A stretch of 64,000 nucleotides of DNA from Rhodobacteraceae bacterium REDSEA-S34_B6 (GTDB lineage Bacteria; Pseudomonadota; Alphaproteobacteria; Rhodobacterales; Rhodobacteraceae): NCBI GenBank assembly GCA_001627925.1, contig LUQC01000040.1:1-64000 (forward strand). The letters run 5' to 3'. Shown in pieces: positions 494 to 5,137 of the stretch; positions within the stretch are counted from its first letter, which is position 1; each line of letters starts with the position of its first letter. Both the position numbers and the translations under genes were made by a program. Below the pieces are notes generated by a model. That model worked only from the letters and a program-made list of their open reading frames with translations, ran no database searches and had not been told where the DNA came from.

Positions 494-2161
494 TCAAACT
501 AAACGACTAACGATAACGGAAACTTCTGGCTTCTTCCCTACTTCGGATTTGCACGTTTGCCTAGCACACCTTCTGACTACTTCTTCTAACAGTCCATTAT
601 CCAACATTACATCTGAGCCTGCTCGCCCTATTAATTGACTTAGGTCTTCCTCCAAGCAATCAACCAAAGGTGCACTTGAATTTGTAACGGAAGGTAAACC
701 CCTGGTTTCACACCATGGCTCCCCAACAAGATCATCGTTCTCATCTAGCAGAATAGTCACAACAACCAAACCGTTTAACGCCATACGTATACGATCTCGT
801 ACTATACCCTCTGTTGAAGTAATTTTAGAACTTCCATCTAAATATAACCGCCCGATCTCTATTTTATCCACAAACTTTGGCTCATTAGCAGATATATTTA
901 AAATATTACCATTAGTGCAAACAAATGATGAAAATCCATTCTGAGATGCCAACTTAGAATGCTCTCGCAAGTGCCGATGCTCCCCGTGCATTGGTATAAG
1001 AAATTGAGGTTGAATAATTTTATGCATTTCCTCCAAGTCAGGTCTATTTGCGTGACCAGACACATGATAAAAACCCGACTCATCATCGACAACATCAACA
1101 CCCATTTCTGAAAATTGATTAATTATTTTAGAAACGCCTTTTTCATTACCAGGGATTGTTTTCGATGAAAATATAAAGAGATCGCCCTCTTGTAATGAAA
1201 AACCCCTATATTTTCCATTCGCTAACTGCGCAGTGGCTGCTCTGCGTTCTCCTTGTGATCCAGTTGCCAATATCAATAGATTTTCTCGCGGAACTTGTAA
1301 TGCATCCTCTGGACTTATGAGCGGAGGAAAATCACTTAAAACTCCAGTTTCCACTGAAGCATCTATCATTCTTCTCATGGCTCTCCCAAGAATGCATACA
1401 GAGCGGCCAGATCTCACACCTGCTTCAGCTAATGTCTTTAATCGAGCAACATTAGATCCAAACGTTGTGGCGACGACGAGCCGTTCAGCATTTTCTATCA
1501 GTCCCTGCAGCGGCATGCTAATTGATAGCTCTGAACGGCCCTCCTGTTTTGAAAAAACATTAGTACTATCACAGATAAGAGCTTTTATGCCACCTTTGGA
1601 AATATTTCGCCACACTTCTCTATTAAAGGGCTCACCAACACCTGGTGTTTCATCAATTTTGAAATCACCCGTATGAACTAATCGGCCAGCCGGAGTGTCT
1701 ATGACGAGACTGCTACTCTCTGGTATCGAATGAGAAACAGGTACAAACCCTACTTCAAAGGGCCCTAATTTTTTCATTTCAGGCCATGGTTGCAAGGTAT
1801 GAACGGAATGATCTGTCAATAAGGCGTCATTCAACTTTAAACGTGCTATATGCGCAGTAAATGCTCGGCAGTATATAGGTGCCCGCAACTCATTCCATAA
1901 ATGCCCAAGGGCACCAATATGATCCTCATGGGCATGGGTGATCAAAATTCCCTCTATTCTATCGCGCCGCTCCTTTATCCATGATATGTCTGGTAGAATT
2001 AAGTCTACACCAGGAGTAGTTTCCATATCTGGAAAGGAGACGCCCAAATCAACGATAATAAAACGTTCTTTATCTGGTGGACCGTACCCATAGATATATG
2101 AATTTAGTCCAATTTCACCCGCTCCGCCTAGCGGCAGATAGATTAAGTGATTTTCGCTCAT
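494..2161 (-). CDS. rnj: Ribonuclease J (metallo-beta-lactamase/beta-CASP nuclease)
   Basis: The 555-residue protein has the usual length of RNase J. The zinc-binding motif THAHEDH is at residues 75-81, followed further on by HTGDF (about 163) and by the beta-CASP motif region with VSGHANRPD (about 367). It acts in the cytoplasm as a 5' exonuclease and endonuclease in mRNA decay and rRNA maturation; in alphaproteobacteria it works alongside RNase E. Its ATG overlaps the coaX stop by four bases (ATGA), so the two are translationally coupled. It is the last gene of the nuo-birA-coaX-rnj run. Confidence 0.95.
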   Translation of the reverse strand: MSENHLIYLPLGGAGEIGLNSYIYGYGPPDKERFIIVDLGVSFPDMETTPGVDLILPDISWIKERRDRIEGILITHAHEDHIGALGHLWNELRAPIYCRAFTAHIARLKLNDALLTDHSVHTLQPWPEMKKLGPFEVGFVPVSHSIPESSSLVIDTPAGRLVHTGDFKIDETPGVGEPFNREVWRNISKGGIKALICDSTNVFSKQEGRSELSISMPLQGLIENAERLVVATTFGSNVARLKTLAEAGVRSGRSVCILGRAMRRMIDASVETGVLSDFPPLISPEDALQVPRENLLILATGSQGERRAATAQLANGKYRGFSLQEGDLFIFSSKTIPGNEKGVSKIINQFSEMGVDVVDDESGFYHVSGHANRPDLEEMHKIIQPQFLIPMHGEHRHLREHSKLASQNGFSSFVCTNGNILNISANEPKFVDKIEIGRLYLDGSSKITSTEGIVRDRIRMALNGLVVVTILLDENDDLVGEPWCETRGLPSVTNSSAPLVDCLEEDLSQLIGRAGSDVMLDNGLLEEVVRRCARQTCKSEVGKKPEVSVIVSRLV

Positions 2162-2937
2162 TTGACTTCTGAACTCTTATTATGCTCAAAGATCAACCGC
2201 AAACCATGCATCGTAAGATCATCTTTCCACTCATCAAATACTTTTTCTGCTGACTGAAATAAAGGCCCCAACCCACCGGTAGAAATTATTTTCATTTTGG
2301 AACCGTGTTCAGTTTTTATGCGCTCACAAATTTCTTTTAGCAATCCAATATAACCCCAAAATACTCCTGATTGCATACACATCACTGTATTTTTACCTAT
2401 GACTTTATCTGGCCTTGCAATATCGACATGTGGAAGTGCCGCAGCTTCTTGATGAAGTGCCTCTAGAGATAGATTTACGCCTGGAGCTATCACTCCCCCA
2501 ATGTAAGCACCATCATGATCAACCACATCGAATGTTGTAGCCGTGCCAAAATCAACTATGATCAAATTCCCACCGAACAAGTCATAACCAGCAATAGTAT
2601 TAACTAACCTATCAGGCCCTACTCCAGCTCCACTGTCTACTCGCACATCAAGGGGAAGGTGACATTCTGGCCTTCCCACCACCATTGCGCGAGTAGCGAA
2701 GTAACGGTCAGCGAGTACTCTTAAATTGAAAACCACTCGAGGAACAGTCGATGAAACTATAACATTTCTAATTTTTACCTCAATCTTATTCAATTGCATA
2801 AGAGATGAGAGCCAAACATAATACTGATCCGCTGTCCTTTGATGCTCAGTTGCAGTTCGCCAGGTAGCAATAAATTTGTCTCCGTCCCAGATAGAAAAGA
2901 CAGTGTTTGTATTTCCACAATCAATTGCTAAAAGCAT
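2158..2937 (-). CDS. coaX: Type III pantothenate kinase
   Basis: The 259-residue protein is a member of the CoaX/acetate-kinase-like fold and phosphorylates pantothenate, the first step of coenzyme A synthesis. Visible motifs are the N-terminal phosphate loop DCGNTNT (6-12), GVGPDR (105-110), the catalytic-region aspartate in IVDFGTATTFD (127-137), and GGVIAPG after it. The start ATG has an AGAGAGG ribosome site six bases upstream. It lies 11 bases after birA and overlaps rnj by four bases. No type I kinase (coaA) is seen in this window. Confidence 0.95.
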   Translation of the reverse strand: MLLAIDCGNTNTVFSIWDGDKFIATWRTATEHQRTADQYYVWLSSLMQLNKIEVKIRNVIVSSTVPRVVFNLRVLADRYFATRAMVVGRPECHLPLDVRVDSGAGVGPDRLVNTIAGYDLFGGNLIIVDFGTATTFDVVDHDGAYIGGVIAPGVNLSLEALHQEAAALPHVDIARPDKVIGKNTVMCMQSGVFWGYIGLLKEICERIKTEHGSKMKIISTGGLGPLFQSAEKVFDEWKDDLTMHGLRLIFEHNKSSEVK

Positions 2938-2948
2938 AAGAAACCTCT

Positions 2949-3686
2949 CTAGTCAAAATAAACGTCGGCCGCAGCTATTGCCCGTTTAGTGCGCCCTGCT
3001 TTTAAAATCAAATGCCCGTCCATGTTAATGTCACTAAATACTCCACTTAGTGTCTCATTTGTCGTTCTCACAATAATCTGGCTTCCAATCCCGTGAATAC
3101 GATCCATCAGAAGACTTCTCAATTCCGTGAAACCTTTATCTTGTAAAGTACCTTCATATTTAGAAAAATTAACCGCTAGCTTATTCAATAATTCAATTGG
3201 ATCTATGGCAACTCCAGTTTCGGTCAAAATAGATGTAGGACTGAAGGCACTTTCTTCCAGCTCAGAAGCCCCTGGGTATGACAATAAGTTAACTCCAAAA
3301 CCAATTGATAGGGCTATTTTATTTTTACCAACTGCTATCGTTTCGAGCAGAATTCCAGCAACCTTTTTTTGATTTAACAAAATATCATTTGGCCACTTTA
3401 TGGATACCGGAGCACTACCTTCTGTGAAATCACTCAAACAGTCATATACGGATAATGCGGCGGTAAACGAGCTTAGAGCATATCTATCTATGGTTCTGTC
3501 TGGAAAAAATACATACGTACACGCAAAATTCCCGGTGGGATCAACCCACATTCTACCGCGCCGACCTTTACCTGCCAATTGAATATGAGCAAATATCCAG
3601 CAGGGACCAGACCCGCTAGATACCCGTCTACGGGCTTCCAGCATAGTACTATCAATTTTATCTAATACTATTATGTCGTAAGAAAT
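2949..3686 (-). CDS. birA: Biotin-[acetyl-CoA-carboxylase] ligase, probable ATT start
   Basis: BirA adenylates biotin and attaches it to biotin carboxyl carrier proteins. The protein lacks the N-terminal DNA-binding domain of the E. coli regulator type. GKGRRGRMW is the ATP/biotinyl-AMP loop and KWPNDILLN the catalytic-lysine strand. The first ATG (3644) lies inside the conserved DST biotin-pocket motif (IDSTM), so starting there would delete it. The frame stays open upstream through SYDIIVLDKIDST, but no ATG, GTG or TTG precedes an in-frame TAA. The best candidate is ATT at 3686-3684, seven bases after an AGG that overlaps the nuoN stop, giving about 245 residues. The upstream extension is visible in the sequence; use of ATT is inferred. 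Confidence 0.85.
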   Translation of the reverse strand: MSYDIIVLDKIDSTMLEARRRVSSGSGPCWIFAHIQLAGKGRRGRMWVDPTGNFACTYVFFPDRTIDRYALSSFTAALSVYDCLSDFTEGSAPVSIKWPNDILLNQKKVAGILLETIAVGKNKIALSIGFGVNLLSYPGASELEESAFSPTSILTETGVAIDPIELLNKLAVNFSKYEGTLQDKGFTELRSLLMDRIHGIGSQIIVRTTNETLSGVFSDINMDGHLILKAGRTKRAIAAADVYFD

Positions 3687-3694
3687 ATTAATAC

Positions 3695-5137
3695 CTAATT
3701 AATCAAAGAACTCGCCGCTAAACTTGCAGCAGCCTCTATTCCAAAAAGATTGATAATGCCAAGTACCATGACAACTGCTGCAGTTGCAGCAAAACCTGAC
3801 AATATTGGTGACTTCACTATATCTAAAGAAAGATCTTGTTTCTCGCCAAAGTACATCAAATACACAAGTCTTAGATAGTAATATGCCCCAATAACGGAAG
3901 CCAAAACACCCATAACCGCCAACCAAATCAGCCCTGCATCATAAGCGGCCCTTAAAACGTACAGTTTACCAAAAAATCCTACCAGAGGGGGAACACCGGC
4001 AAGGCTAAAAAGAAGTACCAACATAGCTAACGCTCTCCCAGGTTGCTTTACGCCTAACTGTGATAAGGAACCAATGTCAGTTACAGGCTGCCCATCTCTT
4101 TCCATCGACATTATGAATGCAAAAGTGCCAATATTCATCGCTAAGTATATCGCCATGTAAACCAGCATTGCCTGGAGGCCTAATAACGTTCCTGAGGCAA
4201 GTCCAATCATAGCATAACCCATGTGCGCAATAGACGAGTAAGCCATCAAACGCTTAATATTTGTCTGCCCAATTGCCGCGATTGCCCCAACAAACATCGA
4301 AAGAACAGACATCAGAGCAACAACCTGCTGCCAGTCAGAAATTAAAACATAAAAGGCATCATAAACAACCCGTGCAAAAAGAGCCATTGCGGCAATCTTA
4401 GGGGCTGTCGATAAAAAAGCTGTCACTGGAGTTGGGGATCCCTCGTAAACATCTGGTGTCCACATGTGAAATGGTACCGCTGAAATCTTAAATGCAAGCC
4501 CTGCGACTAATAAAATCATTCCAAACATTAGACCAAGGCTAACACTGCCAGAATCCAAAGATATAATTATAGACTGAAAGTTTGTTGATCCTGAATAACC
4601 ATATATCAAGGACGCTCCGTACAACAATAAACCAGACGACAATGCCCCCAAAACAAAATACTTCATACCGGCTTCTGTAGACTTGAGACTTTCACGTCTA
4701 ATGGAAGCAACCACATAGAGTGCCAACGACTGCAATTCTAAACCTAGATATAATACCATAAGATCGTTAGCAGACACCATAAACATCATTCCAACAACTG
4801 AAAAAATTATTAAAATTGGATATTCAAAACGTCCCAAATCATGTCTAAGCATGTAGCCTAAGCTCATAATCAGAACAGCAGCCGAAGACAGCAAAATCAG
4901 CGCTTTTGCGTATCTGGAAAATGCATCACTAATAAACATGTTATTAAAAGCGGCTTCACTTGATGAGCCACCGAATATCATCCACATGCCAACAATCAAC
5001 ATAAGCCCTGCAGTGGCTAAGGTTAAAGTTGCTGTTTTTTTATCCTGACCTCTATAAACACCAAATATTAATGCCAGCATTGCAAAAATAGACAGAAGTA
5101 TTTCAGGCAAAATTAAATTTAAATCATTTTGGATCAT
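3695..5137 (-). CDS. nuoN: NADH-quinone oxidoreductase subunit N
   Basis: A 480-residue polytopic membrane protein of the Mrp-antiporter-like family, with about 14 hydrophobic segments. It is one of three proton-channel subunits of complex I in the inner membrane. Characteristic stretches are AVPFHMWTPDVYEGSPTP (the discontinuous helix region with the channel lysine before it) and LMAYSSIAHMGYAM. It is the last structural gene of the nuo operon, 16 bases after nuoM. Its stop overlaps the probable ribosome site of birA. Confidence 0.96.
   Translation of the reverse strand: MIQNDLNLILPEILLSIFAMLALIFGVYRGQDKKTATLTLATAGLMLIVGMWMIFGGSSSEAAFNNMFISDAFSRYAKALILLSSAAVLIMSLGYMLRHDLGRFEYPILIIFSVVGMMFMVSANDLMVLYLGLELQSLALYVVASIRRESLKSTEAGMKYFVLGALSSGLLLYGASLIYGYSGSTNFQSIIISLDSGSVSLGLMFGMILLVAGLAFKISAVPFHMWTPDVYEGSPTPVTAFLSTAPKIAAMALFARVVYDAFYVLISDWQQVVALMSVLSMFVGAIAAIGQTNIKRLMAYSSIAHMGYAMIGLASGTLLGLQAMLVYMAIYLAMNIGTFAFIMSMERDGQPVTDIGSLSQLGVKQPGRALAMLVLLFSLAGVPPLVGFFGKLYVLRAAYDAGLIWLAVMGVLASVIGAYYYLRLVYLMYFGEKQDLSLDIVKSPILSGFAATAAVVMVLGIINLFGIEAAASLAASSLIN

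Follow-up and report, generated by a model that had tools for sequence, protein, structure and literature searches.

In E. coli, pcnB, the gene of poly(A) polymerase I, reportedly has an AUU start codon and is translationally limited, a finding credited to Binns and Masters in 2002. The infC gene starts at ATT in E. coli and at ATC in Streptomyces, as given in PMC5472188, where the non-canonical start of Streptomyces sigR is GTC in 32 and GTT in 2 of 34 cases and repression by IF3 was measured. In Borrelia burgdorferi, the AUU start of pncA (BBE22) was confirmed by biochemistry and structure, according to PMC13398362. Well-supported near-cognate starts in bacteria are few, and gene callers miss them. 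The original prediction had placed ATT starts chiefly in infC; infC is one such gene, but the description is too narrow, as pcnB, Borrelia pncA and, with GTC, Streptomyces sigR belong beside it. For AUG to AUU switches, a single case was reconstructed among 61,358 AUG starts in PMC5622118, and this rarity lowers the prior for an AUU start in birA. In the open-access literature, judged by titles and abstract openings, we found no description of a near-cognate birA start.

Here we compare the birA start of the 64,000-nt window (the whole stretch of DNA that was analysed) with these systems. The gene order on the minus strand is nuoN, birA, coaX (Table 1), and the birA stop codon is 2951-2949. 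The birA product is a monofunctional biotin protein ligase with catalytic and C-terminal domains (PF03099 and PF02237 both present) and a TIGR00121 match of 126.6 bits against a cut-off of 83.1. It has no N-terminal DNA-binding domain, with an in-frame stop five codons before ATT 3686, and its predicted structure aligns with E. coli BirA from residue 77 on. The assembly (G000) is a draft genome of 111 contigs that also encodes a biotin carrier protein needing BirA. A second BirA that might relieve birA of its duty was considered and rejected, as G000 has one TIGR00121 match only.

Table 1 Features of the birA locus, in window coordinates.
Feature	Position	Strand	Remarks
coaX, type III pantothenate kinase, downstream of birA	2158..2937	-	NF009844, 414.3 bits
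birA, biotin--[acetyl-CoA-carboxylase] ligase	2949..3686	-	245 aa with ATT 3686 as start
First in-frame birA ATG, expected pick of standard gene callers	3642..3644	-	just after Asp-Ser-Thr
Asp-Ser-Thr (DST) biotin-pocket motif (residues 12-14)	3645..3653	-	17 aligned sequences all share S13 and T14
Codons of beta strand 1 (residues 4-11 counted from ATT)	3654..3677	-	DSSP on AF2 model
ATT, proposed birA start codon	3684..3686	-	ATT 5, ATC 1 in the clade; ATG 5/5 in the sister clade
AGG, weak Shine-Dalgarno-like element	3694..3696	-	7 nt before ATT; overlaps nuoN stop
nuoN stop codon TAG	3695..3697	-	8 nt between TAG and ATT 3686
nuoN, upstream of birA	3695..5137	-	NF004440, 667.8 bits
In-frame stop TAA upstream of birA	3699..3701	-	read directly

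The birA start region in the window and in related genomes

The birA frame is open from 3698, immediately after the TAA at 3701-3699, and none of the 18 in-frame codons upstream of ATG 3644 is ATG, GTG or TTG. The original prediction had noted the absence of these codons correctly but gave the open stretch as 14 codons, which is the count from ATT 3686. It also held that the first ATG cuts into the DST motif. The motif would indeed be damaged, but since ATG 3644 lies after the DST codons (3653-3645), a start there loses all of it. The AGG that had been described as seven bases from the ATT was read directly at 3696-3694, where it shares its first two bases with the nuoN stop TAG (3697-3695).

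Sixteen genomes of the genus were searched and birA was found in 11; the five without a match are 58-77% complete. Six of the 11 genes form a clade in which a canonical start upstream of the BirA domain was found in 0/6. At the 3686 column, these genes carry ATT in G000, G006, G008, G012 and G003 and ATC in G013. Two of the six correspond to named public records, CACDPV010000004.1 (isolate AG-390-B07, Rhodobacteraceae), with ATT, and PAHS01000025.1 (MAG NAT183, 'Marinovum sp.'), with ATC. From its isolate name, we take AG-390-B07 to be a single-cell genome. In the other five genes (G007, G014, G001, G015 and G011), the alignment places ATG exactly at this column. A comparison of start regions in relatives, which had been proposed as a check, thus found a canonical codon at the column of the proposed start in every member of the sister clade (5/5), and the start at ATT 3686 put forward by the original prediction was well supported by this column, by ATT or ATC in 6/6 clade members and by signs of purifying selection in the codons that follow.

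A tree of NuoN and CoaX recovers the ATT/ATC group and the ATG group as monophyletic (bootstrap 100 each) and as sisters (94). Both clades are also recovered in the BirA tree, where G013 is placed differently inside the ATT clade. With ATG at the same column in the sister clade, the simplest change runs from ATG to ATT/ATC, and the switch probably replaced an ATG. Most outgroups start birA four or more codons further upstream, and they do not settle the direction. The 16 genomes (G000-G015) are classed as one genus, which falls into two halves with BirA identity of only 38-40% and NuoN identity of about 60%.

In the family, 295 genomes were searched and 289 contain birA. The start region was read in 94 birA genes of other genera (26 + 8 + 60), of which L128 was unreadable, leaving 93. 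An in-frame canonical codon lies at least 10 codons before the DST aspartate in 93/93, and in ten genes of one 60-gene set the nearest such codon stands over 20 codons upstream. Absence of a canonical start ahead of the domain, first read in the window, is therefore found in 6/6 clade genes and in 0/93 genes of other genera. In L124, L125, L127, L140, L144, L145 and others, the sole nearby canonical start for birA is a TTG that arises in the final codons of nuoN (CTTGTCAACTGA-like) and that seems to be used; with such a start, birA would overlap nuoN in those family members.

Substitutions between clade members suggest that the codons after ATT are translated. Over the eight codons from ATT to TTA, G000 and G013 differ by five synonymous and no non-synonymous changes (expected synonymous share 0.235, P 0.0007), G012 and G013 by five and one (P 0.003), and G000 and G012 by one and one (P 0.42), a comparison of three lineages in which the significant pairs share G013 and which lends support short of proof. 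The four codons before ATT show few changes, with synonymous to non-synonymous counts of 2:1 for G000 and G013 and 1:0 and 1:1 for the other pairs. Variation in the codons from ATT up to the first ATG is mostly synonymous, so this stretch is probably translated.

An AF2 model of BirA read from ATT was built on 17 sequences (mean pLDDT 87.1); residues 4-11 form its first strand. Residues 1-245 of the model match solved biotin ligases with Z scores up to 28.5, and against the A. aeolicus ligase 2eay_B (residues 1-233, Z 27.0) the alignment runs from residue 1 to residue 1. On this model, a start at ATG 3644 would remove the first strand together with DST. Four of the six clade members have a canonical codon inside the strand, an in-frame TTG at codon -4 (G003, G008 and G012) or GTG at codon -5 (G013), and a start there would halve the predicted strand. 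G000 and G006 have neither codon.

The AGG at 7-nt spacing before ATT/ATC is present in 6/6 clade members and missing from the sister clade. Its predicted duplex with the 16S tail has an energy of -3.8 kcal/mol in G000, G006 and G003 and -4.2 in G013, and the best site in the sister clade reaches +1.0 kcal/mol in 4/5 genes and -1.0 in one. The strongest site of G008 and G012 is a different one, a GGTGA located 13 nt upstream of 3686, which would suit a start at 3692. A stronger Shine-Dalgarno element beside a weaker start fits a pattern described in PMC5622118, although that paper reports no significant difference within the alphaproteobacteria. The 8-nt gap after the nuoN stop is compatible with reinitiation by the same ribosome, as in the 70S scanning reinitiation treated in PMC9031893.

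Readings of the birA start

Our preferred reading, to which we assign a probability of about 0.83, is that birA is translated from ATT 3686 (ATC in one member), with initiation placed by the AGG and expected to be inefficient and sensitive to IF3. At the level of sequence, comparison shows where the start lies, that the clade conserves it and that the codons following it are translated. From known biology we infer the remaining steps. The AGG overlapping the nuoN stop would position a 30S subunit, or a ribosome just off nuoN 8 nt upstream, coupling initiation to nuoN termination. Initiator tRNA would then read ATT or ATC as formyl-Met despite the mismatch at the third base. Weaker third-base pairs are excluded by IF3, according to PMC10158994, and a mismatch of this kind with the initiator anticodon should lower the efficiency of initiation and let IF3 reject it. 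BirA would accordingly be expected in small amounts that rise when IF3 is low.

The alternative that survives best, though improbable, is a near-cognate start at another Ile codon, most obviously the one at 3692, which is ATT in G000 and G006 and ATA in the other four clade members. ATA can probably initiate in this family, where it appears to be the infC start, and the GGTGA of G008 and G012 lies 7 nt ahead of 3692. This element is missing in G000, G006 and G003, however, and just 1 nt separates the AGG from 3692. The sister-clade ATG sits at the 3686 column, and the sequence upstream of 3686 bears no resemblance to other family N-termini.

A very small chance is left to a shorter but working enzyme that begins at a downstream canonical codon, either ATG 3644 in all members or the TTG/GTG at -4/-5 in four. 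Such codons do occur in frame, but with ATG 3644 the protein would lose its first strand and the DST motif, in which S and T never vary, the TTG/GTG positions are not common to the whole clade, and the codons ahead of these starts appear subject to purifying selection. It is hardly plausible that birA lacks a start of its own and is made as a NuoN-BirA fusion by -1 frameshifting or bypass of the nuoN stop. nuoN does end 8 nt before 3686, with birA in another frame. Against this, the TAA in G000 leaves only the last nuoN sense codon for shifting, inspection by eye revealed no slippery heptamer, an ATG of its own is present in the sister clade, and BirA would be tethered to a membrane protein. 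A sequencing or assembly error at 3684-3686, for which the draft state of the window's genome might speak, is next to impossible, as the check for a different base there found ATT/ATC agreed by six genomes, including one whose isolate name points to a single-cell genome.

The probable birA start beside other near-cognate starts

In the same lineage, infC provides a second near-cognate start. ATA stands before a (A/V)R(R/K)PH motif, with no canonical start, in 11 of the 12 genus genomes that have infC, G000 among them. The twelfth (G010, L112) has a longer run of C near the start, which puts the frame out of register with its relatives and may be a sequencing error. The family set holds 29 infC loci, from which L164 and L170 were left out for length; the 27 loci read comprise 24 with ATA, two with ATC and one unmatched (L192, outside the pattern). 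AAGGA-type elements lie upstream in the infC loci (G000:C41:71288-71782, or L113; L111-L122; L165-L192). Judged by this column, the known infC cases and the AAGGA elements, ATA appears to be the infC start throughout the family, so that near-cognate starts would be in use in the lineage to which the window belongs.

The best reading, from comparison of genomes, is a real AUU/AUC start, fixed in the clade, that joins the class of infC, pcnB and sigR. Like infC, birA would keep a near-cognate AUH start across a clade. The infC start acts on the production of IF3 itself and so forms a feedback loop, whereas birA has none; the birA Shine-Dalgarno element in G000 is also the weaker of the two (-3.8 versus -6.2 kcal/mol). 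It shares the AUU start with E. coli pcnB, a different gene, for which limitation is said to have been found by experiment whereas at birA it is deduced. The drift among weak codons within a genus or clade, with no return to a strong start, recalls sigR, whose GTC differs in the first base as well as the third. B. burgdorferi pncA, like birA, encodes a metabolic enzyme of cofactor use in which a canonical start would trim the N-terminal fold; the birA start is supported here by sequence comparison and a predicted structure.

The same column comparison was run as a control over the other genes of the window, keeping 27 ORFs, of which 22 had at least three sequences. For birA, the first column canonical in all genes was the ATG after DST. 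Four other ORFs (8781, 10628, 18645 and 20083) gave no common canonical column or only a late one. Some relatives had been extended in the wrong frame, and canonical starts at the expected N-terminus were seen in some relatives of 8781, 10628 and 20083; 18645 stayed ambiguous. The control is thus partly usable, and we do not claim birA as the sole gene of its kind in the window.

Possible role of a weak start

BirA is a low-demand enzyme. Since it is needed in few copies, a weak start may be nearly neutral, and we see about an even chance that the ATT/ATC codon is a tolerated accident that exerts no control, an account that concerns its purpose and leaves the start itself in place. The biotin setting, alike in the ATT and ATG clades, agrees with this. 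Against it, ATG is one base away and yet occurs in 0/6 members despite differences of 0.50-0.54 at fourfold sites between G000 and G003, G008, G012 and G013, the AGG is kept in 6/6, and the one codon change seen within the clade stays within ATH (ATT/ATC). The absence of reversion to ATG comes from only six genomes, and a low need for BirA would explain it equally well.

Low BirA output or feedback, which the original prediction had suggested as the aim, would be a reasonable purpose for a weak start. More specifically, the codon may be under selection as an IF3-responsive control of biotinylation, and hence of fatty acid synthesis capacity, which we regard as possible but doubtful. If true, BirA would stay low while IF3 is plentiful and rise when IF3 is short, in ocean bacteria that import biotin. 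A difference in biotin economy between the two clades was also considered and rejected, as searches for bioB, BioY and biotin carrier proteins showed no split. In the 16 genomes of the genus, bioB was above the cut-off in 0/16, BioY was found in 15/16 and BCCP-type matches in 16/16. The genus therefore appears to import biotin in both clades alike, and biotin import does not explain the difference in start codon.

Sister clades with ATG and ATT/ATC at one column, together with their Shine-Dalgarno difference, make the case directly testable. The single AUG to AUU switch reconstructed among the 61,358 AUG starts of PMC5622118 makes a fixed switch in an enzyme expected to be essential both uncommon and useful. 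In annotation, BirA proteins of the ATT clade are likely recorded 14 residues short, without the biotin-pocket motif. Further along the protein, residue 40 counted from ATT (window 3567-3569) lies in the stretch GKGRRGR in the six ATT-clade BirA sequences, with R in place of K in the other 11 aligned; the loop holding this stretch is presumably the biotinyl-AMP loop.
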